From Galaxea fascicularis (lineage: Eukaryota; Cnidaria; Anthozoa; Scleractinia; Euphylliidae): a stretch of 64,000 bases of DNA. The notes under the pieces were generated by a model. It was given only the letters and a program-made list of their open reading frames with translations. It was not told the origin of the DNA and did no database searches. This document shows positions 1 through 64,000 of the stretch, one piece after another. The stretch lies in contig OX419336.1 in NCBI GenBank assembly GCA_948470475.1, positions 34,939,415 to 35,003,414 of the forward strand, given 5' to 3'. Each line of letters opens with the position of its first letter. Within the stretch, counting starts at the first letter, position 1. A program made the position numbers and the translations under genes.

Positions 1-15598
<15,598 letters not shown>

Positions 15599-34359: not shown

Positions 34360-35417
34360 AAAGTTAGAAGTGTAAAATTAATTTGAGACTTCTGAGTTAA
34401 AAGGTTCTATCCTCGAAATGTCATTGTCAATTTGCCGTGCGTAAAAAAAGTTACCTTATTTTTCTTCCGTTATCAACAAAAAGGCCACAGACACAGGCAA
34501 AATAAGTTAGAGCAATTCCAGTGGCCCCGTGACAAACGAAAAATTTGCTTCCAATGAAAAAATCCGCCATCACGATCAATCTGACGAATTTGAAATTGAT
34601 TCTTGGAGGATATCGAACTTAGTGGTGATCCCAAAACCATCTTTCGTTTCCACTAAAATGAACGAAAAAATCATGAATTTTAAAAAATCTTTTTCTCCTG
34701 GCTGCCCTTAAAAACCACTTATTATTTTCTTGGTAAATAATATCTTTTTTCCCCTTTATTCCGAGCCACATTTTATCTAACAGATGCTTTATACATTCTC
34801 AACAGCAAATTCAATTTTAAGTTCGGCCCTTATCAATGTTTTGAGCATCGGAGGTTTTTACGCGTAGGGAAATTAAATAAAAAGTAATAAAAATCCTCAA
34901 AAGATTACAAACTGCATTATTTTATGATTACGTTTATCTAAATCAAAAGTCCCGAGAGAGAATGCCGATATCCGCAATGATTTTCCAAGATTGTCGAACT
35001 TGTCACAGAATTTACATTGAATCAGAAAAGCACCTTAACTTAATTTACACTTAAATCACAACGTTCATAATAAAAACAGAATTTGCATTTTAAAACACAG
35101 CCTCTGTCAACACATCTTAAACATAAATAGCTGCAGTTTGAATTTTTTGCACGATAAATCCTTTTTTGTTTCGATCGCTTTTCAAGAAAGCGCCACCAGC
35201 CTCGAAAACCACGACTGTTGTGTAGACGGCACGTCTACTTAGCCCGTTAAGGCGATATAATCAGGCAGATAAAAGTAGGACTTAAGCACTTTCAAAAAAG
35301 TGACCGCTACTTAATTATCCAGCGCAAAAGCTCACTTTAAGGCTTCGGGGATTCTTGTTTGCCGACTACCGCTTCGCTCTCGCGATCTCCTCTTATCGAC
35401 TTTACACCAGTTTTGCC
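34360..35417. other. intergenic, upstream of the GPCR
   Basis: AT-rich sequence. It presumably includes the GPCR promoter and 5' UTR in its last few hundred bases. No repeat or second gene is recognised. Confidence 0.5.
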
Positions 35418-40031: not shown

Positions 40032-40269
40032 AAGAACTTTATAAACAATACAGGAACAAATAAATCACATCTTTCACACAAAAAAAACTTTTAAAAAACT
40101 ACTCCCTAGGATTGTAATAGGCAAAGAGCAGTTTTAAATTACAGGTACTATGATAATTGTGATGATGATGATAATTTATTCACTCATATATAAAAACAAT
40201 TATTTACAAAAATAAATTTGGCAAAAAAAGTTCAAGTAACAAGATAACAACTTTTATTTACAAAGAATT

Positions 40270-40990
40270 TATTTTAAATAAAATCTTAACCCCAGAGTCC
40301 AGCCAAAAGAAATGGCTCAGAGATTGCTGCTTTCCAGATAATGAAAATATTAACTGGTCAGCAGCGTACATGCTGGCTAAGAAGTGTACAAGGAGCACCA
40401 AACTTATCGAATTTCAATTTAAATTCTTACACAGACGAGTGCCAACTAATACCTTCCTTTCCAGGATTGGTATACAAGAAAATGAAAATTGCTCATTTTG
40501 CAATATCTTTCCTGAATCCGGCTTTAATTCATCTTTTTTGGTCTTGCACAAAAACAACTTTTTTTGGAAGGAAGTGATTAAATGGCTGTAAGAAGCTAAT
40601 TTACTTTCTAACGATTTCTCTCTGACATATACCACGGCTTTGGGTCTGGAACCAATCAAATCTAAGTTTTCAATTCAAATTAACTACTGTATTCTTCTAG
40701 CACGATATCACATATGGATTTCCAAAACCAAGTTAACAAATTATCCCATTTTTAAATCCTACCTACGCTCTCTGAAATCACGCTGTAAGAATCAAAATTC
40801 AAAAGCAGGCGAAGCAAAGAAATGGGAACCTCCATTCAAATATATAAACGATTAGTTAACACTCATCCCCTTTTCTTTCCTGCTCCTTGATTTTCTGAAA
40901 CCAAACTTTTACCGCAAACCTCACGCCTCTCTATGCTCTCCTATTGTTTTAATGTTTATCATGTACCGTAAATAGTGTAAGTGTCGATGC
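40270..40990 (+). mobile_element. 3' end of an L1/Tx1-like LINE
   Basis: The frames read FQFKFLHRRVPTNTFLSRIG, ENENCSFC and FLVLHKNNFFWKEVIKWL, the post-RT C-terminal region of L1/Tx1 LINEs (FQ..LHR...TN.FL...G, CsFC, FW..v..W). A stop follows at about 40588, and the tail frame resumes at 40640-40852 (LARYHIWISKTKL). It is decayed and lacks RT. Confidence 0.75.
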
Positions 40991-42202: not shown

Positions 42203-45111
42203 ATGGAATCGGGAGAGACCAGAGACAACAATTTCAGACTAAAATTAGCGAAAGTTGCCTCGCATATAGATGTAGAAAAATTGGAGAGGTTGAAGTTCTT
42301 GTGCGCTGATTTAATTCCAGCGGGAGACAGGGAAAAAATAAAAACCCCTGAGCAGCTTTTCTTGGAACTTGAGCAAAGGAAAGAAATAGCGCTGAATAAA
42401 CTTACATTTCTCGTAGATTGTCTGGTAGACATCGGACGGAAAGATCTAGCCGATGATCTAAAGAACTATGAGCGTCAACATTTACAAGGTAAGCAGTTTT
42501 GGTCAAACATCGTCCTAAATAAGATATTTATTTTTGTGCCTACAAAGTGTTTGTGACGTAAATGTCGCATATACCGTCTACTGGACCATCTCTAGACAGT
42601 CCAGTTAAGCTCATTCGCTTTTTCGGCTAAGACGGACAAAAAAATGATATAGTTACTGGAAAGAACCTCAAATTTGTTGAAGAGAGTTTGGTAAAACCGC
42701 CTGTCCGCTCTTCCAAAAGAAGAACTTTCTGGAAAACGGCCTTTCATTCTGGATATTTCCTAATTACCCCATATATTAATTATACATGCATTTTGAGACT
42801 TGAGGTGGCTCAAAACAGTTCCCAGCACTTTCCTAGACGCAGATTTTGATGGGTCATTAATGCCACTCTTTATCAGTTGATGTTACAATCAAACTGCCCA
42901 ATCATTGGTGAATACGTTGGTATTGTTTTTGTGACACCATAGATTACCATAGCAACACTATGACCTGCTAAAAACACCCTTAATTTCAGCTTTAAACGCT
43001 TATATTTCAAAAACTGCACGGTGAAATTTTTTCTTATTATAGAATTTTGATAAGCAGGATGAGATGCAACTTTACATGTACAAATTCTGTACATGGGGTT
43101 CAGAGTCACCTTAAATTTTCGAAAATTTAAGGTGGCTCTGGGATGTGTCCCTGAAATTACCAAAGAAAGATGCCAAAAACCTCTTATTAACTGATTATAT
43201 ACCCCTCTTTCCTCCCTCCGTCCAATTCAACTTCTTGTCCAAATAATTCGTTCCTGATTTCTTCCTCTCTCATCTTCCAAATATTCCACTGACAACAGAA
43301 CTTGAATGAATTTCAGCCACCAACTTCGCAACTCATTGTCTGCCATATTTGTCACTGGGATTTGCTGAACAGGAGCCTGGGCTGAAATGTTGCGTTAAAA
43401 ATCGTCTCAATGTAGCATAGTGTTGCTGCAACAAAGTTGCATTAAAAGTTGGCTCGTGTAACACGGATTAAAAATCAGCATCAAAAATTGGTGTTAAAAA
43501 TCAGCTTGTGTAACATCACCTTTACGGGACAGTACTACAGTCGTGTGAGGAGCCAGTTTTTGTGTGCGCGAGCGCCTTGAGCTTTATGGAGGGTCCCTGA
43601 AACTTTTTTCATGAAAGTTGTTTTTTATTTATCCATGATTCGTGATTGCCCATATCAAGACCATTATTCCGTGTGCATGAAAGTGTTTTTTTTTACTAAT
43701 TAAGGAAGGCTTGAATTAAACGTGATTCGATCATGAACAATCTTGTTTTGCATGAATTAGTTTTAAGTTAGCATTTAAGGAGCATCACTATCAATAGGAG
43801 CATATTATTCTAGTCAAACATAAGATTTTGTTAGATAGTGCAACAGTGACTGCCCACGCTATTCTTGATGCTATAAAATATCTTTTAATCTTTGGTACTG
43901 TACTAAGTCATCAATCACCTAGGATCAGTCGAGTGGTCCACAACCCTCAAAAGTTTAGTACAAGTTCTGTCCCACGAAGCCTTGGCATCATTACAGGTGT
44001 TGCCCATAACCAAGCATTTGTTTGAACAATTGTCTGCAAAAGGCCATGAAAATTAGATTACAAGAAAAATGAGCCACCTTTGAAGTGTAATCAGCCTGAA
44101 GAAGTTACTCGACAGGGACTATTAATCCGTGACTTTACTCTTCAATTATTTAAAGTGAAATGTGAATTACTCGATTTTTGCATGAACGTGAAGGAATTTT
44201 TGGAATTATAAAATTATCCTCGATATGTGAAAAGTCTCAAAATTTTTACGTGAATGCATTTTGCAAAGTGGTATAGGGGACCCTCTTTATGCTAATTAGC
44301 CTATGTATTGTTATGTATATAAAATTAACAAGGGAGGCAACTTTTTCAGGAAACGTTTTGAACACACTCTGAAAAATAGCTCTGAAATCTTGACCTCTCT
44401 GCCACTTTGCAACCAAATTCGACTCGAAGAAAGCTGAACAATGATGGAATACTCTCACCTGTCAGAATTCCAGGAAAAAATTTTGGTGTAGAATTTTAGC
44501 TTACTTTTCGATGTTTTGCGCTGGGATTATTTTCGTAACAGCTGCCGCCAGTTACCTTGGCACAGTTGTGACCGATTTTAGCACCATCAAGAACGTAATG
44601 TTGCCTCTCCCTCCCTCACAGAGATGTTTTGCACCACAGCTGAAAACGGCAAAACTTTTCACCCCCAATGTCTTCACAAAATTCCTCATAAGCAAGGGTC
44701 CCCTTCCCCACCCCCCACCCCCCACCCGTATTCCAGGCATTTCTGTTAAGGCAAGTAAATATTTTTTATAAATTGCTGCTTTTTCAGGAAGTGCAGACTC
44801 TAATGATGCAGCTTCAGCTCATCTTCTAAGAAAAGCAAAGGTACAGCACAATATTATTATTTATATATATGTATTATTTTAATTTTGTGTTTTTAATTAT
44901 TAATAAAATATCCAATCCTCAGTGTCAGGGAATTGGGGTCTCAAAAGGCCAAATTGTTAGCAAGGATGAATTGCATGTCTTAAGCAGTTTAACCCCTATT
45001 GGCAGCTTCCCTTGAGGAAATCGAGATTGGAAGAGCTTTATATAACTCACTGGGACTTTGATTACTGCATGGCCATCTTACTGAAGTTCAGCTGTATCTG
45101 GATTTTCTAAA

Positions 45112-45145
<34 letters not shown>

Positions 45146-48100
45146 AGACTAGTAAAAATTCCGATTTGGCTAGTAGGTTTTGCGCTTCACTAGCTATTTT
45201 GGCGAGTGAAATGTCACCACTGGAGGACCAGTAGAAATCACTGGTTGAAGCATGCAGACTTTGAAACATCGGCTGTATATAATTGGTTCACATGATTTAT
45301 TGCCTCAAGCAAGAACTTAAGATTATTAACAAGCGAAAGCATGATTGAGTTTTTCGGTTGTTTTTTCTAAAGCACCAAATGACAAACAAACTGTTTGCTG
45401 CAAATGAGAAGTTAGGGAAGTTTAGGGATAAAGTTTCATGCTTAAAAAAAGTCGGTTTTCTTTCAATTACTTCAAAAACTAAAAAAAAATCTGAGTAATT
45501 CGAGTGATGCCTATTTAAGATTGATGTCTATGTCTGCAACTCTCCAAATAAAGTCATTGCACTTTGAAGTTGTTTAGTGTACTTTAAGTTACACACAGGC
45601 TAGCATTTATTTGACGTTTTAGTTCAAGCCCCTTAAAATCAGATTTTTTGTATTTAAACTGTTGCGATGATAAACTCATCATAACACTTTCAAACGTAAA
45701 ATAAACCTATTCTAATAAGCTGATAAGTTCAGTTCTTTCATCTCTGTACTGTGGTTGGAAAAAAAGGTACTGAAACTGCTTGACAGGATGAAAAATAAAA
45801 TAACTAAGAAACATTAGTCTGGGTAGTGAAAAATTTGTTTTGGCTAGGGAATCAAACGTGTGCACTAGCCACTGGGCTAGTAAGCTGAAAAGTTAGTCTC
45901 AACCCCTATCTAAAACTGTAGAAGGTGGCAGCTGGTGGAGGGAGGAAGGTCATGAGAGAGCAAAAGGATATAGTGTGGCATAATTTGCATCATAAGAATA
46001 AGAAGCATTAAATCTTTCTATATTTATTTACCAGTTGTGTTCAAGTATTTATGACTTTCCATGTACCAGACTCAACTAGAGGCCAAATGTATTGTAATAA
46101 TGGTGATACATCATTTACTGTCACCCCAGTCTATCATTGTGAAACACTCTCAGCTGATAGTAATTGTCTCTACAAAATTAATGAAAATCAAACTTGTCAA
46201 TAAGAGTGCTGCAAGTTTTGAATAAATGCAGTGAAATATTATAAGTACTGGTTTCCTGATACTGAGTTTTGTTGTTTTAATTGCTATATTGTTTATTTGT
46301 TAACTATTAATAGGATTCCATTCAAAGAGCGGAGAGTTACAACAACAGAGGAAAGGTAGAATTTCAAGAGGGTAGATATGAGAATGCATGTCAGCAGTAC
46401 ACATCTGCTCTTAAAGCAATTGGATGTCTTCCTCAAGACCAGGAGAAAGATGCAAGAGTCAAGTATCTTTGTAACCGAGCATCTTGTTATGTAAAACTGG
46501 TAAGTTGCATACTGGTATTAGTTTTTACCTAATATGCAATGTTATCTGATGTCGATCTTGCCTTAAAGTACTAGGAAACAACTAGTGCATTTGCTTCTGA
46601 GTCACATGTGGTGTACCATAACAACCAATACTGGTACATTATATTTCTCATGTTAATCAATGATTTCCCCAACTCCTTTACTTATTTTCTCAACCAGATT
46701 ATCAATGTTATGTAGACGATACATCTCTGGCTGCTTCTGGATGCTAGCAATCTTGATGTTTTATTACATGAAATAAATATTATCATTTGCCAGCCTTCTA
46801 CAATAGGTTATGCAGTAACAAAGTAACTTATTATAAAGATGACTAAAACTATTTGGATCATGTGTATTTTGTGCACCCCTCAACCCATAGTAGACCGATA
46901 TATCGGTCGACATATCGACCGGCACTCGACCGATATGTCGACCGAGGGGTGCACAAAATACACATGATCCAACTATTTTTATGAAGAAGATTTAGAGACT
47001 AGAAACTTTACTTCTGCTACTGCCTAGGGAAGAAATACAAAAGCTTGCGAAAAAAGCAGTAAACAAAAATACAAACAAAACAAGGTCTCTTGTGCGTTAC
47101 TGAAAATTTCTGGGCTTCCATTAGAACAGTGATCTTTCACACCACCAACATAACACCACAAGGTTTAAAAATCTTGTGGCATTTCCTTGCACATGGCAGA
47201 TATAGATCAGTGTTGATCTGCCACAGGCGCCATTGTAAAGCTGTTTGCAGAGGAGTGGATTGCAGATTTCTTGTTGCATGGAGTTTAGCTGTTCTACTGA
47301 AACAGAATAGTTGCGTTGTATAGAAACTACCCTATTTTTAGTCGATCACTTGTAAACCCTTTGACTTTTGCAAGGTTTAAGCTTTCTTTAGCTTGAAAAT
47401 GAACTGCCTTTTTTGACAGTTCTTTTATGTTGGTCTTGCAGAGGAAGTTCAAGGAGGCACATGAGGACTGTGACTCGGGTACGTATTCCTCAATCCTGGC
47501 ATGCAGCTGCTAATTGTTGTGAGATCTAGATGGAATTTTGAAGAGAGGATAATCTTTGATAGGGTAATCACTGTGGCACTACACAAGAGTCAAGACCCTC
47601 ACAGATGACAATCAGTGCAAGATAAAACCACAAAATTATGTGCAACCATTTATCCCCATAATGCGATATTGCAAGAAATACATATAGCTTAGTAACTACA
47701 GCACTCAATCATCAAAGCACCATTAATTTTCAAGGGTAAACTATGTCCAGAATTGAATAATAAATGACATTCATTCTTTTTGTAGTAGACATCACAAAGT
47801 GTCTCTCACCCCCAAATTTATCCTCTCTTAAATACAAGCAATTTAATCAAAATATGAAGGTTAGTGAAATAAATAACTGTTTGTAGAGTTTACATGCATT
47901 TCTGGCCTCGTTAGTGCTATAAGGGTTGCTGCTGTGTGAGCTTTGATCTCTGTAACTGACTGGATAGTTGTTTCTTGGTTCAATGCAAGTTGCAATCTGT
48001 TGTCCATACTTCATTAATGATGGTAATGGTAGTGAGTTTTAGAGGACTTGCACAAGCATTTATGAGGAATGTTGCATGCTCTGCATTAGGTGGAAAACCC

Positions 48101-51100
48101 TCTTTCTCATGTCTGCATGCACAGGTAGGCTAAGTGCTTACTTTATACTTAATCCATGTTGTGTTGAACTAGTCTGCAATCTGTATCATTTCCAAGCTTT
48201 AAAAGTAGTCCTCATTGCAATTGCCAGTCAGTGATCAACCATCAACAGTCCATAGTCAAACTTAAAGCCGCACAAATAGTATGTAATTCAATCTTTCTTT
48301 TTCTGTTTTCTAGCACTATTGCTAAATCCTCATCACACAAAAGCCAGGTATAGGCTGGTTCAGTGCTTGCAAGGTGAAGAAAAAATTGCTGAGGCCTTCA
48401 TAGAGGTGACAAGTTTACTGCAGAAAGATCCTAAGGTGAGCATTTGCATTGGATGTAATTGTGCACTTCACATGCCATACAGTATAAGAGATTAATATGA
48501 CAGCAGCTTTCTTGTATTCGTACAGTATATGACTATTTGACATGACTATATGTCTTTTCATCTTATGAATTTTTTTTATTTATTGTGTGGTTGGAGGAGA
48601 TTTAAATTAAAAAACCTGTTAGTGTACCCACCCCAGTTTTGATTTTCTGCATGGGAGCAGGGTTCCAAATATCCTATGAAGTACTAATTTAGAATTTCTG
48701 GAGGGGCAGGGGACCCGGGTTCAAATGAGAAACCCCTTTGTGAGAAATGAGAAATTAAGTGACTTTGTATTTTTTCAGGAACAACATGTTGTTTCTTTTC
48801 CTTATTTGTGTGCATGTAATTTTAGACAGCTCAATAATTATTGTTTTCTTTGAAATTGTACATTGTTGTATGCACTTGATGTCCTGGCCCTGGTTGTTCT
48901 ACATATCAACAGATAACTCAATCTTATCCAGCAGATTATTGAGCTGTTCTTCGCAGACAGTGGATATAACAGTATAATAGCAGATATCTACTGGATAAAA
49001 CTGCTGAAAAACAGACTTGGCTGTCAATTTGAATAATCAACCATTTATTTGAATAACTGAAACAAGATAACTGGAAGAACCCACAGCTGGATGGAAAAAT
49101 TGCAAAATGAAATCTCTAACAAATTATTGATTGATTTTACAACTTGTATTTTAATTTCTAGGAGATTAATGCGCTTTGTTTAGGCTTTTTTGGAGACTGA
49201 ACATCAATAATCAGGACCTTGTACTTTTCTTCAAAGATATATTTAATTGACAAAATTAAGCATTATTTATTGATTGCTAGCCAAATATCATCAATAAATT
49301 GTCTTCAACTTTGGTTTGTCACTGAATGTTATGTGGTCAAATGCTTTGTCATTGTTTTGCTTGTGATTCGATGCAGACAGCTACCAGGGAAACATGCAAG
49401 GCTTTGAATGAATTTTTTTGTGTAAATGAAATTGACTTCAGTTGATTTTTTTATCATTTTCTAATGGTTTATCAGATAAAAGAGGCATGGTAGTAAGAGA
49501 AATATACTACCATAAAACTTAAGGAAGAAGTTGCTAAGTATGTCAGTTCTAAAAAAAAATTGAATTTCAACCCAAGAAACCATGATCTTTTGTTGTCAGT
49601 GTTCATTTCCAACATGTGGATCAGCTCTTTGCAGGATAACTATCCAGTGGATAACCATTTTTTGCGGTAAATGGGCCCTGGTCCAGTGAATAAATTTATC
49701 TGCTCTTTGAACAAGTGCAGCCCTATTATATATCAGTTAGTTTTTGCCTCTCAACAATATATTATTATAGTCTGAAAAACTAAAAAGAGGTATTATTTTT
49801 TCTCCTGAAATAGAACTCAGCTGTTGCTCAGCTTGAGAAAACATTGAGAAAGGAAGTTGAGGTAAACATTAAATGAATGAAGCGGGTTAAAGAAATGGTG
49901 GTACTGTATCTGTTAGTGAGTGGTGCATAAAAACGTAGTTTTATCAATGAGTTTATAATGTCAGTTGGCTGCCATAAAGGGATTAAAAAAGCAGATATAT
50001 TTTCAGTGTTAGCCATTCACTTAGGCTCGATTACCAGCCGCTGCTTCAGGAAATGAGCCTGCGCTCATCCCCCGAAGAGACTCTTCTCGGGGGAGAATAC
50101 TCCCGACCCGAGTGAGCAGCGGAAATCGAACCTACCATTCACTCAGTTAAAAAAAAAACCAACCAACCATTAGGTGCCAATTGGCACATAATGCCATAAT
50201 TGTGGATTTTTGGTTAATTGTTAGATGCATGTTCAGTTTCATTGAATCATAATTTGCACCATGTTGTCTTTGAAGCTGGTTTTATTTGCAAAGTGAGCAA
50301 GGTATTTACAAGAAAAAGTTAAAATCTGATTGAACAGATTGAGACATTTAGCTAAGACTGCTACACCTAGCTGTAAAATCAATGATTTGTGTATGAGCAA
50401 GCAAAGCACTACAGGAGAGCCTTAAAGAGTGGTACATTGAATATTTTTTCGTGGGCCACTAATGCTGTGGCCAGTGGCCACTGCACTTGCATGCTTTCGC
50501 TTTTGTCATCTCTTGAACAAAAACTGATTGAAATAAAATAAAGATGGAGTTATATTTTCACTAAGCCTCACACTTGTATAGAAAAACATGGGTATTTCAA
50601 TTCATACATGTAATAAATAAAATGATGCCATTTTTTGTGCCCAAAATAATTATGATCTGTGATATCTGTCAGGGTTGCACCCTACCTGATAAGTTTCAGT
50701 GCAATTTAAAAAGATGCACATTTGGAGATTTCAGTTTCATTTTGTGCTGTTGTGTGTCAGCTATGTTGTATGATCTTAGCATTAATTGGAACAAATATAA
50801 TTGTAATATTTTGTTATTTATCTGTCAATACAGGATGCCAAGCAAAAGGCAATGGAAAGGAAATCACAAGGGGAAGCTTGCTTTCAAAAGTCAGACTATA
50901 ACACAGCTATCAAAAAGTATTCAGAGGGAATATTAATGCTTCCAAAGCTGGACTTGTATGCAAGGGAAATGAAACAGTTTTACTGCCAACGAGCTGAGTG
51001 TCACCTAAAAAATGTAAATACTTCATTTTTAATCTGTTTCAGTTAAACTATGTATGCCAAGGGGGGTACTCCGGATTTCAAGTAATGGGGATGATCAAAT

Positions 51101-51407
51101 GATTTTTTGGGGTATGAAATTTTCAATTCTGGGATGTTTTGGGTTGGAGAATTTAGCAAGTATTTTTTGTGTGGCTTGATTGAAGTAGGGATTTTTTTGC
51201 AGTATTCAAAATAATCTGAATATTTGGGTAGTGCCAGTGCATCCAGGCTGGGTTTTGATTTTTGTACCCATTTGATCTTCCCTGTCACTTTAAATCTGGA
51301 GCCCCCCCCCCCCCCCCCCCCCTCCTGGGTATGTATGAAAGGTTTTGAGTTTCATGATGGATGCATTTGCATTGCCATGGCAATGATGATGATGTTGATG
51401 TTGATGG

Positions 51408-51438
<31 letters not shown>

Positions 51439-54400
51439 GATGATGGTGATGATGATGATGGTGATGATGATGATGATGTTGATGTTGGTGATGGTAATGT
51501 TTTGATGGGATTATTTTCCAGAAGTTTCATACTATATTGAAATATCGCTTATTACATATCTGGAGCAATGCTAAATAAAAGTTAGATTACCTGTCATGAA
51601 TTGCTGTCCTTTTGCCTCAGAAGTGATGTTTTAAGAGATTTTTAAGGGTTTTGAGGACGCCATTGACTGTGCCTCAATTGTGCAGGCTCCCCGTGAAGTC
51701 AGCAACCGCCGACCGGTTGGCTCAGAGGTAGAGCACCGGACTGCTGTGCGGGAGGTCGGGGGTTCAAGCCGGACCAACACTCAGGGTCTTTAAATAACTG
51801 AGGAGAAAATGTTACCTTTGTAATGACATCTGCAAATGGTTAGACTTTCTAGTCTTCTCGGATAAGGACGATATAACCGGAGGTCCCGTCTTACAGTACT
51901 GGTGTGGGATGTTAAAAAACTCACACACTGATCGGAAAGAGTAGGGAACGTAGTCCCCGGTGTGATGGTCTATAACTTATTCTGTTCTGGGGGCACCTGT
52001 GTCGATCCTACTATTCATTCAAGTAAGATTGTAAACTGCGTGGCTGCAATTTGCGCCTAGAAGCAGTCTGGCAAAGTCCCCCAAAAAGTGTTGTAAAACG
52101 CTTTGAACCCTTTGGATAAAAGCGCTATATGAATCCTCATCATTATCATTATTGTTATCAGCATTATTAAGAGTAGGTTACATTGTGGGTTTAGGTTTAG
52201 ATTAGATTAGTTTAGGTTTACTTATTTCGATAGGTTACACAACTCAAGTCCCAGCCCCCCTTTTTTGGCAGTCTGAAATAAAATCAAATTTTAGTCTGAA
52301 ATTGTTTGCCCTTCAAAAAAAAAAACATCCCAGGAACATTTAAACACTTCAAACACATCAAAATTTTAAGTTACCATAATAAACCGTATTTTTTTTTGTA
52401 TATTTTGAAAATACATGAATGGGTGTTTGTTCCTTCCTTATTCATATTTAGAACAATCTGGAAACTGCCTTGAGAGACTGCGATGAAGGTAAAAATTTAA
52501 ATAATGTCCTTGCATTTTGATGCTGGTTGCTGATGTGCCATTTTTTCTTGCATATGCTGGTTGATAATACTAACGTGAATGGAGAATGTGTTAAAGCTAG
52601 ATTTTTCGAGGTATATTCAGGGTTTTCAAAAAGTGACGGTGACTGGCGATGTCGCCAGGTACTTCAGCCAGTAAAAGGAAAAATATAAGGGAAGCATGGC
52701 GCATGTTGTTACCTCCTGAGTGTCGTCTTCTTTCCCAGATTCTCCTTCTACTTAAAATCTTGACAACCCTCTATATTGTTAGGACGTTGTTGGAAGCGGC
52801 AACTTGTCTGTTGTAATTGGAGAGGTACCAAGACTCTGCAACTGTTACATTTTGTATTTACTTCTTCAACCACGCTTTAACATTCTCTGTTCTCTGATCT
52901 CTAATGGAATACTAAGAACCAAACTGAAGATTGAAGAGTAAAGACTGAAGTGTACTGAACTGAACTGAATTGAAGAACTCTACTCAAGCTTGTTCGTTCA
53001 GAATTAAATACTAAATCTGTAGCCTTGTTTGGGTTTATGGACCTTGGGAATACGGAGGATTCCAGACATTGCTTATTCCCAAATGGCTAAACATACCAAC
53101 GCGACCACTCGAACGATCCAATATTAATTTTTTGGAAGAGTTCCTCATGGACGATTTACCGTAGCAACAGCTTATTCTAGGACCAGAAAATGAAGCAGCA
53201 GCATTGAACGGATGGTAAAGATGAAGGCTTCAGCAAATTAAAGAAATCAAAAGATCCATTGCATTATTTACCATTCGTGAACTTGTGAGGCAACAAGTGT
53301 GGCTACGAATGTCTGCTGTTTACGTTTGAAATCCGTCTAGCATTGACGAAATTTGTGTAGCTTTGAAATATCTCCTATTTAATCATGATTATCAATGAAC
53401 TTCTAGATGAATTCTATGACGGAATTAAGTGACATTGAAAACCTACCTTGATGGTTCGCCGTGTTTGGTGGACTTTTCATGAGAAAACCGCTTGCCCAAC
53501 GTACTTTTTTTTTCGAATCCGTTCCCCAAGGAAACGCACGGATCATGAATCCTAAAAATCCGGATTTAGATTGTATCTAATGATTCCACTCGGAGTATGG
53601 ATTCTTCAGATTCATGATCCATTTTTGGATTTTAGTAAAGAAACGCAAAATCCGTTGTTAGATCTAAGAATTCGGATTTGGATTTTCCCAAAGAAACGAA
53701 CCCTAAGTGCGTGATTTATCCTTTGTTTTTCAACGCATGTTGATTTTTTTTTTCTCGTGTTGGGAATTTGATGATTGCTTGACAACACAAAGTTTTCCCA
53801 ATGAATCTCGCGCTAAAATCACTCACTCATGATAGAAATTCGTTCAAAAAACAGATATGTTTCTCTCACAATGTCCCAAGTTTGATTACAACACATTTTC
53901 GATTTTCTTGAACAAAAAACAAACAAATTGTGCATTGCTTTTGTTAGATTGGTCACAGTTAACTAATGATGACAGATTCGATGCAGGCCTCTCCTTTTCC
54001 AGTCAACTGAACAATCAACTTTAAACATGTTAAAACGGTTTTGCTAATAGAAAGATTATGTAAACACACTCGTACCACACGAATTTGAATACAGGAATTT
54101 TATATTAGTTGTAAGTGTACATAACTTAGGTATGCGTACGATTTTATTAACAGTTTAATTTTTTTTATTAAAAAATGTTATTATTATCATGCTGGTAGTT
54201 TGAAAACGTTTTATGTATTCATTTAACTGTTAACTATATCTATATTTTATTTATTGTGATTACAATTATTATCCTTTAGCACCTGCCTAGATTAGCTTTT
54301 TGCTGTTTGCATTTAGTAGTATAAAAAAAGTAGTAAGGAATTTGTTACAAATAAAGGTTGTTTTAATTTTGTTTGACAGCCGATCGTCTGGTTGCTGAGG

Positions 54401-57400
54401 ATGTAAATGTGCTTGTGCTGTACACGAAAATGCAGATCCTTGAGAGGATGAATAGATGCAAAGAGTGCTTTGCCATTTGCAACAAGCTAGTTGAAAGGAA
54501 CTTCAAGGTATTGTGTAGTAAGCTGGTATACTTCAAGTTATGAAACACTATGAACTTTGAACTTGCAATTCTTAAGGGTACATTTTTAAGTTTTTGTAAG
54601 CAAGTGACATTCAATCTATTGTTTTGGTTAAAACATGTATGGCTTTTGGTAACCTTGGTTTAATTTGTTATTAAAAATTTCATCATTGAAGGGTAATTAT
54701 TGTTTTGTTGTTGTATTGACTAACAGGTCACAGAAGCCAAGGAAACCATAAAGCGATTATTGCCCAAGGTATGGTGGATTGTGTTGCTTCTGAAAGCAGG
54801 AGGGATCCATAGCCTTATTCAAATTATTCACAGCCATGCTATCCTCTCAAAAGTATGCAGAACTGTTTAACTGCCTAGTTGATACTGTGGAAAACAAACT
54901 AGGACCAGGAAAACTTGTCATCTGTAATACGTATAATACCTCCCACCAACCCGAAGTAAAAAGAAAAATGAACAACTTTATGTTGGCTTTAATAGTAATG
55001 TATAGTGTATATTAAAGGGAAACCCGTTCCATTACTGTCCGTGTATTTAGAAACGTTTTATTGTGTATTTTGTACCTCTGCGTAATTAAGATTATGAGAG
55101 AGGATGAACAGTCTAAGAAGCCGGAGGAACCAGAGTTGTCTCAAGGTGCAGAGGCCACACCAGTTAAGGTATGAGGACATTTTTTCATCGTCCCTTCTGG
55201 GGAGCCAAAAAAAAAACCTCGTCTTTTTTTAAGCGGAAAGTAGCTGTCATTTTTGAGTTGTAGGTGTGGGGCAGATTTTGCTACTTGGATTCGTTATTCC
55301 TTCGCTCGTTCGCTTCCTGTTAAACATTTTATTAATCCGTTTGGCATATACTCCGCATTGGCGTGAAGCCGCCGTCTTACTCAATGATCTTCACTGGGTA
55401 AGACGGCGGCTACAAACGCATGACAAGTACGTCACGCCTTGTGAAGTCACTTGGTTGGGATGTAGTAATGTTAGGGACACTGGAAGAGGGTCTTCAAATC
55501 CCAGAATTTTTACCCAGGGACTACTGGGTACTAGATTCTTCTGTTAGTTTTTAGATCAACATTCCTGCTTTTAGCTTTTTATTAAGTATTTTATAGGTTT
55601 ATATTTCATATTTTAAATTAATAACTGCTAACATTTTTGTTAGTTTTTCTCAATTGTTTTACATGTATATATTTTACTGTGACGGAGTTAACATGCACGA
55701 CCCCACAAACTTGTAAGCTTTAGATCTTATCATGTTTAGATAAAGGTCTTTTCTTCATGTTTATGATTATGTTTATGTTTTACCTTGATGTAGTGAAAAG
55801 CCGTAGATAGCCTTGTGTTGTTTGTGGTGGTTATGGAGATTAACATGACGAGCGTCTGGCTTGGATGCAACCTTGTCATTCTTCTGAACATCGCGAAGGT
55901 GTTCGCGGAATCGGTCTCCTTGTTGTATTCGTGTCTCGCCAATGTGTAATTTTTAATTTGCACTGATGTCCTTGTGCCATATATTATGCGTAAATCGTTA
56001 TCTTGCCATTACTCGATGATGGGCAACATATCCTTTTGCACTGGAAAATGTTGTGTAACATTTTCCAGTGCAAATGGCTATGGAAGTTAATTTTGGTGTT
56101 GACGAATTTCAGTGATTTATGCAAGACATTGTGCACGCAGTAGTCCATGAGTTACAATCAAAGACATCCAAGCATTCCCGTCGTTAACGGACTAAATTGA
56201 TTCCGTTCGTGGATTTAATGACCCGTTCATGAAATAAATAATCCAATATTCAAATTGAGCCTCGATTCAATATTCGAATGTTGACTGGATTAATGAAAAC
56301 ATGCCTTACCAAATGGACGACAAATCAAAGCATGGACGACTCCCCCGATCGATATTTGCCGTTTCTTTTGTGAATATTTACGAAAGGACCAGATTGATCT
56401 TACTTGTCTGTAATGGTCGACAATTTTGTTGAACCCTCGCACTGTTACCTTTAAATCCTTGATATATCATTTGCATTGAAACCCTGATTGTTTAACTCTA
56501 TAATTTCTTCTCGAAAAGCGCCAGACGGAGCCTTCCCTGTCTCGTAAATACGTTTCAAACTATCTCGTCTGTCCGCCATCTTTTCCTTAACTGAGGAAGA
56601 GTTGGAACTTATTATGCTTATATGGCAAGGCTTTTGTTCATTAATCTAATCAACATTCGAATATTGAATCGAGGCCCAACGGTATCAATGTGCGTTATGA
56701 ATTCATTAACGACAGGAACGCTTGGCTGTCTTTGACTATAAAATTATGGAAAAAATCATTTATGAACTGAATGCCTGTCACAGCACAAGGCTGCAAATAA
56801 CAGTCGGTCATCGGACAATTGTGCCGGTAAATTTGACGTTTTGATCGGCGAAACATTAGTCTGGTCTGTCATTCTGACCGGGCACTTTTGATCCAAATTA
56901 ACCTCTTATTACGAATTCTTAATTTTGCTCTTTCACTTAGAATTTTTTTTCCCTGTCAGGTCAAGTCTGGTCTCTGACCTGACAAATGACCTACTTATGA
57001 AAATAAATTATTTGCAGCCTTGCAGCAGACTCAGTTCAGTGGCCCCACCCTTTCAAAAATTCATTTTCCGAGTTCAGTGGTTCATAGCCACCTTGACTTA
57101 ATTATAATCGACTCTCTCTTTAGAGACTAGACTTTGGATTAGAACATTTGATCCTTAGACATGTTGATTAGTTAGAAGAGAGAACTAGATATACTGTATA
57201 ACGGAAAGTAAATAGGCGATTTGGTAGTGATCGTTGATGAGTGGAGGTGGCTGCTGTAGTCCCGGCATAGTAAATCGAACGTTCGAAAATCGAACTCAAT
57301 CGAACTCAATCCGTGGATTGAGTTCGATTGAGTTCGGCAATCGAACGAAATCGAACACCACACTTTCAGTGAGTTCGATTTCCGAACAAATCGAATTCAA

Positions 57401-60400
57401 TCGAACAAATCGAACTCAATCCGTCTGATTGTGTTCGATTGAGTTCGGAAACCGAACTCGATCGAACACAATTAAATGGATTTCGTTCGATTGGCTCTGG
57501 TGAATCTATACAAAGCAAGCGCAAAGCAAGCCCGTCAAAGCAAGTTTTTCTTGCGCTTTTTTTACTATTTATTCAATAACACAAACCCCATTTATAAACT
57601 GTCCACGGCAGTTAAAGCCTGGTTTCCATATGATCGTCCGGATCGTCCCAGTCGTCTCAAAAAATGTTCAGACGATCGGGACGATCATATGGAAACGCTA
57701 CTCAGACGATCGCAAACGACCCGGACGACTGAGACGACCTCGATCGCTTGGATAGAATTGAGTTCTATCCGGACGATCGGGACGATCGTGTAAATTTTGA
57801 AGCGATCATATGGAAACGCTCTCAGACGACTGGGACGATTGGGACGATCCGGACGATCATACAGAACAGAACAAAACAAAGCTATCATTATTCCCGCGGG
57901 TGTATTTCGAAACTGTCGTACCCTTCCCTTTTTTTAGCTAACTTACAATAGCAGCAAGACAACTCGAAGGATTACTTTTATGCAAAAATACAAGCATACT
58001 AACCGCGAAACAGGCTACGGCATAAAGTAGATGGATGATTATGAAAAATATCTTACTAACGACACTCGGGGTTGAAGTAACTCGAGCTTCTAAGATCTGG
58101 TAATGGATTTTCAACGTCTGTTTTACATAAATCACGGGTTCGAAAATCGAACGTTCGATTGGGTTCGATTGATTTTTTTTCTTTTCGGTGAGTTCGATTT
58201 CGTTCGATTGCCGAACTCAATCGAACTCAATCCACCGATTGAGTTCGATTGAGTTCGATTGAGTTCGATTGAAATTTAGTTCGATTGGGTTCGATTTACT
58301 ATGCCGGGTGTAGTGACGGTGTACTTTTATAATTTTGTACTTTCAATTTATTTGTATGGGGAAAAGGTAGAAAACTGCCGATTTAATTCTTTTCGTCGCA
58401 GAAGAGTAAGAAGAAAAAGAAGGGAAATAAAAAGAAGAAAGCGAAGGAAGCAAACAAAGGTATCGGGACTAGATTAGTGAGCAAGAGTTACCTCTTTGAA
58501 TTGCAGTCGTAACATCATTTGCTGTCTTTGACTGTCAAGAGGCTGATAATTATAATTATAGTGATAATGATAATGATAACGATAGTTAAAGATGTTAATG
58601 TTACTGGCAAAACACTTAGCATAAAGTTAAAAGGAGACTGTTCGCATCCGTTTGTCGACCGGTTTCTTGGAATGTAGTTTAAGTCGATCGTAATTCTATT
58701 TTGTTGACATTCTACTTGTTTGTTGTAATTTGCTCCATACCTTGGAAGCAAACACGAAAGAGCAGTTTCATTATAAACTAGAACTGTTTAGGTTTTATCA
58801 AATCATCTTGAAGTCCGTAACCTGGTTTGAATTTTTAAGCGGAATTTAGCCCGTGTCTTGGAGGTGAACACCATTTGCAGGTCGTGAGCTCAGAAGGGAT
58901 TTCCTGTTTTAAGCCAATTCAGTGTTTATTTTACCTTGACAGTTTCTATGATCTCAGATAATTTAGAAGAAAACCGAACTTCACCTACAGCCGATGACAG
59001 TTTAACCACAGTACACAGGTAAACCCTTGCCATTCGTCAATAAGATGATTAATAACTGAAATAACATTTCAATCTTTGGCGTTTGGTTATTTGATGTATA
59101 TATGTAAATTTAGAGGGTATTGCCCTGAATAGGGTCCAGGTAACATCAAGCTGACCTACCCAAACTTGGTTGCAGGAGCGAAAGGTCTTCCTGTACTGAG
59201 ATAATTGTTCAATTAGATCATGGGTAGGAGTAACATTATCGAGAATAGTGGAAGTGTGTTATCTAGATAGTAAGGCGAAATCTTTAAAAGCCAAGCGCTT
59301 TGTTTTTTGGCAGTATTCCCGTAACTCGAGCATATCTTGTTTGCTGAATGCCCTTTTCCCTCCTGAGGGGATACGTACTTTGAGACGTCTACACCGCTAA
59401 GATTCTGGAAGGCCTAAAACAAAACGTTAATCCAAAGCATTCGGCATAGAAGATACACTTGAGTTACGGAAATGATGCCGAAAAACAAAGCGGCCGGCTC
59501 TTCGCTCTACCTTCAAATTTGTTTCTGGAAAGGGGTACGAACCTTGTAAGGTAACTACATTTGCTTATAAGACAACAAAGTAATTGTTAATTCTAGAAGC
59601 TTGGTAGGAAGACTAAATCCTAGTTTGTTCACATAAAGTATCAGCTGGATACTAGAGTTTTTGCGTTGTTTCGTGTTTATCAAAAACATACCAAAGACAG
59701 TAGATGTTCTCCAAAAATTGTGTTTTTCTGCCGTGAGTACAATTATTAACCAAGGTACATGCATTTAACAGCAACACCACTCCGTCACTAGTAGATGAAG
59801 GAGATGGCGAGGAAGAAGAGGGAACAGTCTGCAATGTGGCTTCAGAGACGTGTTTTAGTGGTGCTGGGTCGGCACAACAGAGCGAGAACGAATTGTTTAC
59901 TTTGAGAGAGGACGTTGGGCTTTTAGACAAAGAAGCATTAGTTAACACTGGAGATGATGCTCAGGAGACAGAAAACGTTTCCTTTCTTTCAAAACCTAAG
60001 GTATTTAACCGTAGTTTGTGTTTATTTAAAGGTGAAACTGTGAAGCTTGCGGGGAATGCCCTATAGAAATGGCTTGTCACTCAAATTGATTGGCTACCCG
60101 AGTGGGCAAGACGGACCTATCTTATCTGCTTGGGATTACTAGTACCCCGTTCGCTTCTCGTCATAAGTAAGTCATGCTGCAAACATTGGAACCTTTTTCA
60201 TTTTGTTTCTAGACTGCTAAAACGTGTAAAACCGCTCTTGATACTTCTACTAAAAAAAAAGAAAAGAGAAGAAAAGAAAAGAAAACGAGCGTAAAATCTC
60301 TCACTTTCTCACAACCCCGTCGCATTTTTCTTGACACGTGTATCCTAAATAAGAAATCTTGAACGTATTAAAATGATTATTCTACATCAATAGACGTTTT

Positions 60401-63400
60401 TCCTAGATGAAATTCTCGTCTCAGTTTTCGTTGTTGCTGTCAATGACTGTTTACAGGACAAAGAATCCCTCGACAAACTAGAGGCCAGTGTTCTGATGGA
60501 TGTAAACAACACCTTTATGGAGTCTTCGTTAGGTGAGAAGAAAACATTAATACATTATTTAAATGTCTTAAGGCGTAGGCTCACGTAGTCTCCCTGTTCA
60601 ACTCAAGGTGTCATATCCCATCTTTTAAGTAACGTTTTGATGCTGTTTTTAAATTACAGAACTCGTGTTTATCGTAGCCTAGCGTGAAAAGTGCAAGAAT
60701 AGTATCGCCTTCCATAATTTGGAAATCGCCATTAAAGCGTGCTTTGAACTCAAAGTGTCTCCTTGAAATTACCTGTGTTATTCATGTCTTTGCTAAAAAT
60801 ACCTCTTTTGACCTACCAGCATTTCATGAGAAATGAGGCTAAGCTAGGCAGGGCGAAGGGTTGTCAATGATAATTGCGTTTTGATGTGCAGGTGAGGCAT
60901 ACCCACGTCGAATTCTTCTGATATGTGACCGATGGTCGTGTTGGCATCGCAGCGCGTGTGCAGTTAACAAGCAGCTCAGTCGAAGTTTTGCAAAAAATGA
61001 AGACGTGCACGTTGCCTGTTTAGTTCTTGATGCGACAGTCCAAGATACCATAGCAGCAACAAGAGATGGAGTGAGCCTCATTAAGGCCACACCCCAACCT
61101 GGGATTTGCCAAGGAGACGAACTCCTTCTTCACCTTCACAGTGATTTTCCGTTCAAGGCTGATTTGGTCATTGGCTATGGAAGAATTTCAGGTACCGCAG
61201 CAGCCATTCAGTCAAAACGTTTACATTGTAAACGACTGCACATATATCATAATTTGCCTGGGGAAGATGAAGACGAAGAGGAAACAGTGAGAGACCTGGG
61301 CTTAAGTGCAGATTTTGTTGCTGGGATAGGTCCACTGGTGGTTGAGCAGTGGGAAGCTATACTGAATCGTGAGATATTCACAATAATCCCTGGGCTTCCA
61401 GATGTTGCTCCTCGAAACCCAATTATGACGCCACAGAGTAGATGCCTTATTCTAGGAAACGTGGATAATCCAAAAAGGGGTGGTCTTGATTTGATTACAA
61501 ACGCCCTTTCAGAGTGCAAACAGCGGCAGCATTTTATCCATCTGACCGTGTTAGGTACTGAAAGAAAAAAGGTTTCAGTTTTGAAAGAAAACATACTGAA
61601 TGACGTTCGTTCATCTAGAGTGGCTGTTGTGGTCAAACCATTTGATGTCAGCCAGGAAGCTGTAAGCGTTGAAGTACGTGGTGTTTCTCTTGTGTTGATT
61701 CCATCACCGTCAGATGGGTTTGGTGTGGAGGCACTTGAAGCCATTGCTGCGAAGGTTCCAGTTTTAATTTCCTCTTCGAGTGGTATTGCAAAGTTCCTCC
61801 ACCAAGAGTTTGGTACTGATTTCCTGAAATTGCTGTGTTCATCTAGAGATGACAATGATTCTACCGATGCTTGGGCTAGTGCCATAGATGGCGTCCTGGA
61901 TGACCGTCAACAAGCATTCAGTTTGGCGGCATCTCTTTGGAGCAAATGGAATTCAACGTTTACGTGGGATGTAGCTGTCCACAAGCTCTTACAACACCTG
62001 AGCAGTTCTGGTGTTTTCTCTGTCTCATCACCTTCTGCCAATAAGTCGATTATCCTGCCATCTCAATGTTCAGTTGCAGCTATAAAGTTTATTGAACGGG
62101 AGGTAGATTTACTGAACAAACGCCGGAAACACGTCCTTTTTCTTTCTCCAGAGAATGTGAAAGAGTCGCCTTTTATCCATTATTTTGCCCACGTTCCTTG
62201 GGCTGCGGTACTAGATTTTGACATCAACAGCGTCAAGAATGGCTACCTTGCAAGCTGCGAGACCTTTTGCGAAGATATGGGCATGAAGATCTGCAGAATC
62301 CTTCCACCATGTACAGACGAAGATCGCAAAAAGTTTCCGGCTGGTACACTAACCGGCATCCCATGGGTTCTGCTAGAGGGTATACCAGAAAGCAAACGTA
62401 GCATCAAAGGGAACTTGGACTGGATAAGGGAGTTTTTCTTGGCTCTTTGTAAGACGTACCAAGTCCCTATCACCTTCTTAGTGCTTTGGGAATCGTCTAA
62501 CGAAACGGAAACATTGTGTAAAAGCCTCCTCAGGATACTCACAGTTGTGCAAGGATCCCCTATCGTAAACCAAGTGAAGCTAGTCATAGTATCCACTGGA
62601 GAAACGGTGAGCAGTCATCTCGAGGACATTGCTGAGTACTGGGGTGTAGAGGTACAAAGAATGGGTCTTGAAGACTTTTGTAATGCACTATGCCAGTGTG
62701 TCAATTCATCGCCATTTATTTTACAAAACCAAGACTTTTGCCTCCCAGTGGCTGATCCAGATGACCCTCAGAAAGTGACTTTTAAGGTTTTGCCTCCTTC
62801 GTCACGCTGGATTAATGCTGATATGGAAGTCCTCTTTCAGTCAGTTGGAAGTACGCCACAATTTGAAACGGGTGACGCTTGTCACTTCTATCGTGGTGGT
62901 TTGATCTCCTGGTATGCTCTTCAAATGGGCTATGCTGTTGAACGTGGGAACTGGAAGGCATTGAAGATGAGGGTTGATGAACTTCTGGTTAGAGCGGGGT
63001 CAGTTAAACTGAAGATGCCCCATCAGAGAGGAGCTGGTGGGACTACTTCTGCCCGCAGAATTCTTTTTGACTATCATGAGAAATATCCTTGCGTTTCACT
63101 TAAGTCCGTTGGCCATGCAGAAGTAGCTCAAGGAATCAAGGTTTTGGCAGAATTTTGTAAGTTGCCTGTCATTATCCTCGTTGATTGCAAGCAAACACAG
63201 GGTGATGAATTTGACGTAGACACACTCTACAATGTTTTGTCAAATGACAGAATACCCTGCGTGATTTTGGAAGTGATTCACCAGAGTGAAAAACAGGCGT
63301 CGAATTCTTCACGCAGCTCAGAGAGGTCTGAAAAGACTCCCCCAGTCCGCCTTGCAGATGCTCTTGATACTTGCGAAGCAAACGGATTTGTGGAGACTTA

Positions 63401-64000
63401 CAGTACTCAAAGAAGAGAGAAATTGAGTATGCTTCGTTCTCTTCTTCATCATGGACCAAGGCAACTTCAAATACCCTTTTTCTATGCGCTGACTACGTTT
63501 GAAGACCGTTTCACTGGTCTAGAGCCATTTGTAAGAGATTGTCTTCAAGATCTTAGTTTGACGGAGCAGAAAATACTTCTCTTCTTGGCAATGGCTTACC
63601 ATTATGGGCATAATTCCTTATCAGCCAATGAATTTGCTGGATTGTTGCAAGCACCACGCCGGGACGTCATTTCACTAGAGTCGGTTCTTCCGGAGTTGTC
63701 AAGAGAGCTGCTTCTAGAAGAGGATGACAAATGGAGGCCAAGGCACGACCTCATTGCGCTGGAAATGCTTCGTCAGCTGTTGACCATGACACGTCCCAAA
63801 GACACACCTCCCGTGCACCTTGACAATTGGACAAGCCAGCTCGCTGAGAAAGCGCTGGATTTCTTTGGGTACATGTCAGAGAATGTCGTTAATGACGTGT
63901 TACTCAGTCGTATTCCTGACGACACAACACATCAGTACATCTCATTCTCTCAGCTGGTATCTGACATACCATTTGAGGAAGATGCAGTTAAGCTCTTTGA
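42203..64000 (+). CDS. DED-TPR-glycosyltransferase-like-SAMD9-like NTPase fusion, 5' 16 exons (3' end outside window)
   Basis: Exons: 42203-42488, 44788-44840, 46314-46499, 47442-47478, 48314-48435, 49814-49861, 50834-51013, 52452-52488, 54380-54507, 54727-54768, 55091-55168, 58402-58459, 58958-59018, 59772-60000, 60457-60532, 60892-64000 (open at the edge). All phases agree; at least 1,576 residues. Residues about 8-92: death-effector domain (LKFLCADL, LFLELEQR, IGRKDLADDL). About 114-240 and 245-373: TPR blocks (NNRGKVEFQEGRYENACQQY, LLLNPHHTKARYRL). About 399-418: Lys-rich. About 541-880: GT-B/GT4-like, with DGFGVEALEA at 815 as a D-x7-E version of the E-x7-E sugar-nucleotide motif. About 1080-1576: SAMD9/SAMD9L-like, with FYRGG (1206), P-loop-like GAGGTT (1253) and LPVIILVD (Walker B). 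SAMD9 proteins are vertebrate antiviral, translation-blocking factors; an innate-immune role here is inferred. Introns hold several transposons listed separately. Confidence 0.88.
43589..44285. mobile_element. 697-bp GAGGGTCCC-ended element, 6-bp target duplication
   Basis: GAGGGTCCC (43589-43597) and GGGACCCTC (44277-44285) are inverted. TTTATG is duplicated at 43583-43588 and 44286-44291. The right end (TTTTTACGTGAATGCATTTT) matches the small copy at 32938-33149. It lies in intron 1 of the DED fusion gene; no transposase is recognised inside. Confidence 0.85.
45112..45908. mobile_element. long inverted-repeat element (hAT-like)
   Basis: CAGGGCTCGAGACTAAC at 45112 is imperfectly mirrored by GTTAGTCTCAACCCC ending near 45905. 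Subterminal words repeat in both arms (GGCTAGTA, CACTAGCC, CTAGCCAC). Flanks TTCTAAA and ATCTAAA may be a target duplication. It lies in intron 2 of the fusion gene. Confidence 0.6.
46855..46970. mobile_element. 116-bp hairpin MITE with 8-bp target duplication
   Basis: GGATCATGTGTATTTTGTGC at 46855 is mirrored exactly by the right arm (26-bp perfect arms), and the centre is again palindromic (GGTCGACATATCG / CGATATGTCGACC). AACTATTT is duplicated at 46847-46854 and 46971-46978. It lies in an intron of the fusion gene. Confidence 0.88.
50022..50134. mobile_element. 113-bp fold-back MITE with 9-bp target duplication
   Basis: TAGGCTCGATTACCAGCCGC is mirrored by GCGGAAATCGAACCTA ending 50134; the centre CCCCCGAAGAG / CTCTTCTCGGGGG also pairs. 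CCATTCACT is duplicated at 50013-50021 and 50135-50143, a length seen with Mutator-like elements. Confidence 0.8.
51057..51330. repeat. GGGGTACTCC-type MITE ending in a 21-base C run
   Basis: GGGGGGTACTCCGGATTT near 51060 is mirrored by AAATCTGGAGCCCCCC near 51292. The right end has expanded into 21 consecutive C bases (51302-51322). Confidence 0.6.
51385..51495. repeat. GAT/GTT/GGT trinucleotide repeat
   Basis: Impure runs of GATGAT, GTTGTT, GGTGGT and GATGAT. This is a simple repeat in an intron; the open frames across it are artefacts. Confidence 0.85.
51703..52160 (+). mobile_element. tRNA-derived SINE with microsatellite tail
   Basis: It starts with a tRNA-like head: GGTTGGCTCAGAGGTAGAGC (A box), then GGGGGTTCAAGCC (B box). 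The long body ends GGATAAAAGCGCTATATGAA and an (ATCATT)n-type tail. It is distinct from the SINE family at 10619 and 19440. It lies in an intron of the fusion gene. Confidence 0.82.
55367..55411. repeat. small inverted repeat
   Basis: AGCCGCCGTCTTAC and GTAAGACGGCGGCT form a 14-bp perfect stem with a 17-base loop. Confidence 0.8.
56035..56074. repeat. perfect 18-bp stem hairpin
   Basis: TTTGCACTGGAAAATGTT, a GTGT loop, then the exact mirror. It is isolated in an intron, with no terminator-like or RNA-gene context. Confidence 0.85.
57261..58308. mobile_element. 1,048-bp element built of TTCGATTGAGTTCG palindromic words, 6-bp target duplication
   Basis: CCCGGCATAGTAAATCGAAC at 57261 mirrors GTTCGATTTACTATGCCGGG ending 58308. 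TGTAGT is duplicated at 57255-57260 and 58309-58314. Both subterminal regions are arrays of GAGTTCGATT and its complement. The centre (about 57617-57865) holds a different element with ATGATCGTCCGGATCGTCCC-type inverted words, apparently nested. Confidence 0.85.

Follow-up and report, generated by a model that had tools for sequence, protein, structure and literature searches.

Proteins related to SAMD9 and SAMD9L share a collinear core with a GGT P-loop and an upstream histidine, preceded by a variable N-terminus. In the passages covered of Mekhedov et al. (2017, PMC5445408), death-superfamily domains are described in some of the animal relatives (CARD, Death, Pyrin and FIIND are listed, and the death effector domain, DED, is not named), bacterial kinase-type members are reported and the SAM domain is restricted to vertebrates. 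In human and rabbit SAMD9, whose architecture is NLR-like, the slot in front of the core holds a tRNA nuclease, an effector, as described in the part of PMC12331169 considered here. A second published line concerns GT4 conflict domains, for which the passages covered of Kaur et al. (2021, PMC8195603) report an expansion to over 500 paralogues in Acropora digitifera, in which GT4 is combined with conflict domains in varying architectures, as well as DED-containing cnidarian conflict proteins and bacterial GT4-STAND fusions. Here, we describe a predicted gene of the stony coral Galaxea fascicularis that links these two lines. It lies in a stretch of 64,000 nucleotides (the window: assembly GCA_948470475.1, contig OX419336.1, positions 34,939,415–35,003,414 of the forward strand) and would encode, in one protein, a DED, TPR blocks, a GT4 domain and a SAMD9-type core. 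Our preferred reading, held tentatively at a probability of about 0.48, is that of a STAND-like switch that would signal through its DED, with the GT4 domain as a non-catalytic binding or scaffolding module.

The predicted protein resembles SAMD9 and SAMD9L in the collinear core, the P-loop signature and the variable N-terminus, and in the occurrence of death-superfamily domains in some animals, but it has a GT4 domain where they have AlbA_2, and a DED and TPRs are added in front. Its GT4 belongs to the same family (PF20706) as the metazoan GT4 conflict domains treated in the passages covered of PMC8195603, from which it differs in being joined to a SAMD9 core and in having most donor-site residues replaced. 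These two papers had thus already described GT4 conflict proteins of corals and SAMD9 relatives with Death-fold domains; neither the union of GT4 with a SAMD9 core nor the loss of the GT4 residues was found in the published passages covered, and Figure 6A or the source data of PMC8195603 could hold them. The string “glycosyl” does not occur in the main text of PMC5445408 (figure and additional files apart), and “SAMD9” does not occur in the main text of PMC8195603, whose Figure 6A or source data may draw the architecture. Among open-licence papers, none was found with both “SAMD9” and “GT4” as whole words (most subscription papers lie outside this scope), none using the term “GT4-conflict” and none with the locus names of four relatives; judged by titles and the starts of abstracts, none of the matches listed concerned a coral SAMD9.

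A predicted fusion gene and its cnidarian relatives

A sequence-only reading of the window had joined all these parts through 16 phase-consistent exons, and their fusion in one predicted gene is confirmed by the comparison with other coral proteins. When the model was rebuilt from the window sequence, all 15 introns proved to be GT-AG with consistent phases, and 1,581 codons ran without a stop up to the window end. The gene extends beyond base 64,000. P0003, a protein probably from the same species that shares 99% identity across the last exon, continues for 437 further residues past that point, so the whole protein would measure about 2,018 residues, close to the 2,015 of an Acropora palmata protein (P0011).

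Residues 546–1581 were used as a query, and at least 52 relatives were recovered at E 0.001 among the 7,999 candidates sharing most words. Forty-four of them (P0003–P0046) form the cnidarian set, in which eight proteins carry cnidarian names and 36 were assigned by identity alone (37–99%). The named proteins nearest to the window protein are from stony corals, in agreement with the cnidarian origin proposed earlier. The search for the same architecture in other cnidarians was also productive: domain calls place DED, TPR and GT4 together in four of the eight named proteins, spanning three coral genera, namely P0011, P0020 (Acropora muricata), P0027 (Montipora capricornis) and P0037 (Stylophora pistillata), and the content of P0011 and P0037 was confirmed by a rescan. 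The Nematostella protein (P0044) has a DED and a GT4 and no TPR call, P0013 has TPR and GT4 calls, and GT4 alone is called in P0019 and P0043. Because 25 of the 44 proteins stop short of the Gly-Gly loop near the GT4 start, they are uninformative on the N-terminus.

Exon-by-exon alignment with the four coral proteins gave 30–83% identity for exons 1, 3–5 and 7–10 and 64–74% for exon 16. The linker exons match weakly, with 21–64% identity for exons 2 and 11–15 and, in three of the proteins, 25–38% for exon 6, which is missing from P0027. The weak conservation of exons 11–15, together with the models lacking a DED call (P0013, P0019 and P0043), is what could be expected if two adjacent genes had been wrongly joined; this we find scarcely credible, given that four annotated proteins from three genera carry the fusion and that Nematostella P0044 joins the DED to the GT4. 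The single gene of the sequence-only reading therefore stands. Its parts, all on the plus strand, are as follows.

42203–42488 (+): exon 1, death effector domain (DED at 42233–42478); 40–63 of 91 aligned residues identical in four coral proteins
44788–44840 (+): exon 2, linker; GT-AG and phase, weak identity (3–7 of 13–14)
46314–46499 (+): exon 3, TPR block 1; TPR family matches, 42–44 of 59 identical
47442–47478 (+): exon 4, TPR block 1; 6–10 of 12 identical
48314–48435 (+): exon 5, TPR block 1; 20–27 of 41 identical
49814–49861 (+): exon 6, linker joining the TPR blocks; weak, 4–6 of 16 in three proteins, absent from P0027
50834–51013 (+): exon 7, TPR block 2; 18–34 of 60 identical
52452–52488 (+): exon 8, TPR block 2; 7–9 of 12 identical
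54380–54507 (+): exon 9, TPR block 2; 18–30 of 40–41 identical
54727–54768 (+): exon 10, end of TPR block 2; 8–10 of 13–14 identical
55091–55168 (+): exon 11, linker; 6–10 of 18–26 identical
58402–58459 (+): exon 12, lysine-rich linker; 9–11 of 14–19 identical
58943–59018 (+): exon 13, linker; weak, 4–9 of 19–21
59772–60000 (+): exon 14, acidic linker; weak, 18–28 of 72–77
60457–60532 (+): exon 15, linker to GT4; 6–10 of 25 identical, splice phase consistent
60892–64000 (+): exon 16, GT4, Sir2-like region, STAND-like P-loop and start of the following part, running past the window; 661–761 of 1,027–1,033 residues identical in four corals
60915–61988 (+): GT4-conflict domain; PF20706, residues 11–368 of P0001
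61458–61739 (+): altered donor and catalytic sites in GT4; by alignment with four comparison GT4s
62055–62804 (+): counterpart, by position, of the Sir2-like region in SAMD9 (PMC5445408), with which the SAMD9 core begins; borders chosen by the analyst
63021–63047 (+): P-loop HQRGAGGTT, with GGT replacing GKT and a histidine upstream; conserved in the rows of alignment A1 (see below), SAMD9 signature (PMC5445408)
63165–63197 (+): Walker-B-like PVIILVDCKQT; acidic residue in 43 of 43 A1 rows

Chance joining of exons was rejected, since independent coral protein models match the exons, and so was contaminating bacterial DNA, in view of the 15 introns of the model and of the relatives annotated in corals. 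No second copy of the gene was found within the window by tblastn with P0011 and P0044 (E 0.01).

The SAMD9 core and its N-terminal slot

By its sequence, the gene product is a hexacorallian member of the SAMD9 family. The window sequence alone matches solved SAMD9 chains (phmmer, E 2.8e-4), and a profile built from 19 of the 44 cnidarian-set proteins (A3) matches them with E 3.5e-16 across the P-loop and the part behind it. Alignment A1 comprises 43 rows, namely the last exon of the window, 34 of the 44 cnidarian-set proteins and eight outside relatives; the match of its profile to SAMD9 (E 2.4e-57) was set aside as evidence because A1 includes animal SAMD9-like rows. Within A1, the P-loop histidine and both glycines are found in all 43 rows, followed by threonine (28) or serine (15), and the last threonine is again present in all 43, whereas the Walker-B-like acid is aspartate in 39 rows and glutamate in four. 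The SAMD9-type P-loop region proposed from the sequence is thus borne out by both matches, by the motif itself and by a collinear core. Pfam models for STAND domains scored below cut-off on the window protein (nSTAND_NTPase7, 11.2 bits, cut-off 27).

Collinearity was assessed with a core profile built from nine cnidarian proteins, the cut being placed by the analyst at residue 391 of P0001; the part of the core behind the window end was read from relatives, and the labels Sir2-like and OB are given by position rather than by profile. This profile aligns nearly end to end with bacterial AlbA-type proteins (L001, L002) and P0047, also of AlbA type, with a metallophosphatase-type protein (L003) and with a lamprey AlbA-type protein (P0049), spanning positions 6–1076 to L002, 17–1076 to L003 and 9–1075 to P0049. 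The alignments to the bacterial AlbA-type and lamprey proteins begin at profile position 6–19. In other rows (L004, L006, L007, L013, L015, P0050 and P0053) the match starts no earlier than about position 190, some bacterial-type rows end early, for instance L012 at 765, and P0048 is a fragment. The segment between the GT4 and the P-loop, which the sequence-only reading had left unnamed, lies where SAMD9 has its Sir2-like region; no Sir2 profile match was found in the window protein.

A few tens of residues separate the end of the GT4 (residue 368 of P0001) from the start of the aligned core. The alignments show that the GT4 occupies the slot held in relatives by AlbA_2 (the tRNase in SAMD9), a metallophosphatase or a kinase-like module. 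The sequence-only reading had supposed that the DED replaced the SAM domain; it is instead the AlbA/tRNase slot that has been refilled, SAM being a vertebrate feature in the passages covered of PMC5445408, and a profile scan gave no SAM match in the window protein. No AlbA_2 precedes the Sir2-like region, where the GT4 stands instead. As AlbA_2 has been lost in some members (PMC5445408, passages covered), it is not strictly required for membership of the family.

The same slot is variable in bacteria. Fifteen bacterial SAMD9-like loci (L001–L015), all from one scan of genome contigs with one peptide pattern, share a homologous core with the coral protein, end-to-end collinear in the AlbA and metallophosphatase types, and likewise carry a swappable N-terminal module: AlbA_2 in two, a metallophosphatase in one and a TCAD9/kinase-like module in 12, of which four scored above Pfam's cut-off and eight below. 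They differ from the coral protein in that no GT4, DED or TPR match was obtained in their first 800 residues (0/15, E 0.01). A bacterial fusion of GT4 and SAMD9 as the source of the gene was accordingly seen in none of the 15 loci, a count from one peptide pattern that amounts to no exclusion. In the metallophosphatase-type protein (L003, 5056–9354; PF00149, 41 bits), the slot is filled by a type of module that section 3 of PMC5445408 does not mention. Taken together, bacterial and animal proteins carry dissimilar domains in the N-terminal slot.

A tree computed from 32 rows and 1,036 columns unites the nine cnidarian GT4 proteins in a single clade (support 100/100), which is sister to SAMD9 relatives from lamprey and mussel with support of 86/98, below the starred level. 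A gastropod row (Physella, P0054) is long-branched and placed elsewhere, and a single animal clade is not rejected (p-AU 0.376). This topology weakly favours an exchange of modules on an animal SAMD9 core over a separate capture. A search with a mussel query, aimed at cnidarian AlbA-type SAMD9, listed 86 proteins at E 1e-10, among which all the species-named matches were molluscs.

The GT4 domain and its donor site

The GT4-like module of the sequence-only reading is a full-length match to the GT4-conflict family (235.9 bits against a cut-off of 26, profile positions 1–385 of 385), and the A3 profile finds solved GT4-type glycosyltransferases (6kih, 2iv7, 6tvp and 3c4q, E 3e-5 to 5e-4). In retaining GT-B enzymes, a donor-site arginine and lysine and an E-x7-E motif bind the donor and serve catalysis. 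Four GT4s, all the non-cnidarian hits of one search, were available for comparison: P0055 and P0056 (probably bacterial, AAA/TPR/GT4) and P0057 and P0058 (lancelet, LRR/GTPase/GT4). They share the GT4-conflict domain with the coral protein but are combined with other nucleoside triphosphatase domains, and all four retain the seven hallmark residues. The Arg/Lys and Glu sites align with few gaps against them, and 3c4q, listed as a predicted glycosyltransferase and presumably MshA, aligns to P0056 with the same arginine, lysine and E-x7-E.

As judged from these alignments, most of the GT4 residues expected to bind a sugar-nucleotide donor have been replaced in this lineage. Neither the Arg/Lys pair nor a complete E-x7-E is found in the window protein, with positions assigned by alignment: asparagine stands for the arginine (61458), glycine for the lysine (61479), with an arginine immediately before it, and aspartate for the first glutamate (61713), while the second glutamate is retained (61737). 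Residues were counted in 43 of the 44 cnidarian-set proteins (P0041, which lacks the region, was omitted, and the window protein was excluded). The arginine is retained in none of the 43, the lysine in one (P0040), the first glutamate in five (aspartate in 37, serine in one) and the second in 32; the Gly-Gly loop is absent from all 19 proteins covering that site.

These replacements, in the window protein and nearly all relatives, weaken the idea of a sugar-nucleotide reaction, to which the sequence-only reading had suggested that detection might be coupled, although an acidic pair remains at the two E-x7-E sites in 36 of the 43. This pair is also the first of several points that count against our reading of a non-catalytic GT4 on a STAND-like switch. 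The GT4 histidine is retained in 41 of 43 proteins, P0042 retains both glutamates, and three proteins (P0043 from Actinia, P0045 and P0046) have lysine in place of the arginine, and their two Glu sites carry Glu and Asp. The domain itself is well conserved, being 60–74% identical to the window protein in six relatives, not far below the 68–89% of the P-loop region, and the residue comparison is made with four comparison GT4s only. The conserved domain, the histidine and the acidic pair make weak or altered catalysis possible. As for the switch, the Walker lysine is absent from all 43 A1 rows, as published for SAMD9 (PMC5445408), so switching driven by nucleoside triphosphates is uncertain. Since P0042, P0043, P0045 and P0046 are less worn, residue loss appears more complete in the rows from reef corals than in those of the anemone side, where the GT4 of P0043, P0045 and P0046 could be an intermediate or still active form.

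The same residues bear on the alternative that the GT4 is an active effector enzyme, glycosylating molecules of the invader or host once the SAMD9-like switch fires. Such activity has been proposed as a general role of GT4 conflict domains, metazoan and bacterial (PMC8195603, passages covered), and the slot is the one used by the effector nuclease in SAMD9 (PMC12331169, part considered). The persistence of the histidine, of the second glutamate, of aspartate at the first glutamate site and, in three proteins, of a lysine for the arginine would suit an enzyme, but the arginine is missing throughout, the lysine from 42 of 43 and the Gly-Gly loop wherever its site is covered, and we regard an active effector as rather unlikely.

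Predicted signalling and other features of the window

The DED at the front of the protein was correctly recognized from the sequence: it matches PF01335 with 73.9 bits (cut-off 35.9) over profile positions 1–82 of 82, and its closest solved chain is the first DED of the caspase-8 prodomain (E 3.8e-9). The two TPR blocks are also clear, with TPR_1 at 58.1 bits (cut-off 27.8), TPR_BSK1_C at 44.3 bits over residues 242–321 and conservation of exons 3–5 and 7–10. On our reading, the SAMD9 core would be an autoinhibited switch that oligomerises upon sensing infection or damage, and its clustering would gather the DEDs and nucleate an assembly with caspase-8-like or FADD-like partners. The GT4 would no longer transfer sugar and might serve as a ligand-binding, scaffolding or decoy module, and the TPRs might recruit or position partners. 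Autoinhibition, sensing and oligomerisation are carried over by analogy from SAMD9 and STAND proteins, and caspase-8-like signalling is suggested by the DED. The protein may thus act as a sensor in innate immunity and not as a functional enzyme of sugar transfer, an immune role suggested by the DED and the biology of SAMD9.

The DEDs of PEA-15 and cFLIP, which do not work solely via caspase activation, are also among the solved matches. The DED could therefore be an assembly module only, with a transcriptional or inflammatory output of the NF-kappaB type and no caspase step; the better match to caspase-8 speaks against this without being decisive, and we consider it distinctly unlikely. The TPR blocks invite another explanation, a housekeeping co-chaperone or import factor, since the source record of the Stylophora protein P0037 calls it Mitochondrial import receptor subunit TOM70. 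That name probably follows the TPR similarity, as P0037 shares its DED, GT4 and TPR content with the other relatives and we know of no TOM70 with a DED and a GT4; a housekeeping function is very improbable.

The preferred reading, a switch with a non-catalytic GT4, predicts that in corals the output passes via the DED and that the GT4 part is a sensor or scaffold. A more specific proposal, which we regard as doubtful, is that, in hexacorals, a captured glycosyltransferase lost its catalytic activity and became a receptor or decoy within a SAMD9-type immune switch. The slot would then have been emptied of activity, with the DED signalling and the GT4 pocket reading a ligand, such as a glycan of microbial or symbiont origin, a nucleotide or a glycosyltransferase-targeting protein of a pathogen. 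If the prediction on the DED output and the GT4 part holds, a pseudoenzyme would sit inside a cnidarian cell-death sensor, with a bearing on coral disease and symbiont tolerance.

Several minor features accompany the gene. Its introns contain a palindromic-looking 12-base array (46893–46945), an ATG-triplet array (51383–51493) and, by eye, tRNA-like box motifs (51700–51780), perhaps of a tRNA-derived short interspersed element; ARAGORN found no tRNA in the window. Upstream of the gene, retroelement-like frames were noted by eye at 37984–40588 (+), the only profile match being zf-RVT at 40175–40588, below its cut-off (22.4 against 27.5 bits). A long arginine/lysine-rich low-complexity stretch with several open frames lies on the minus strand (25103–26914), within a block of strong GC skew (24001–28000, −0.346). 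A frame at 115–990 (+) shows partial-length similarity to DEAD helicases (PF00270, 38.9 bits), and a single open frame at 35304–36587 (+) encodes a rhodopsin-family seven-transmembrane receptor (PF00001, 184.6 bits).

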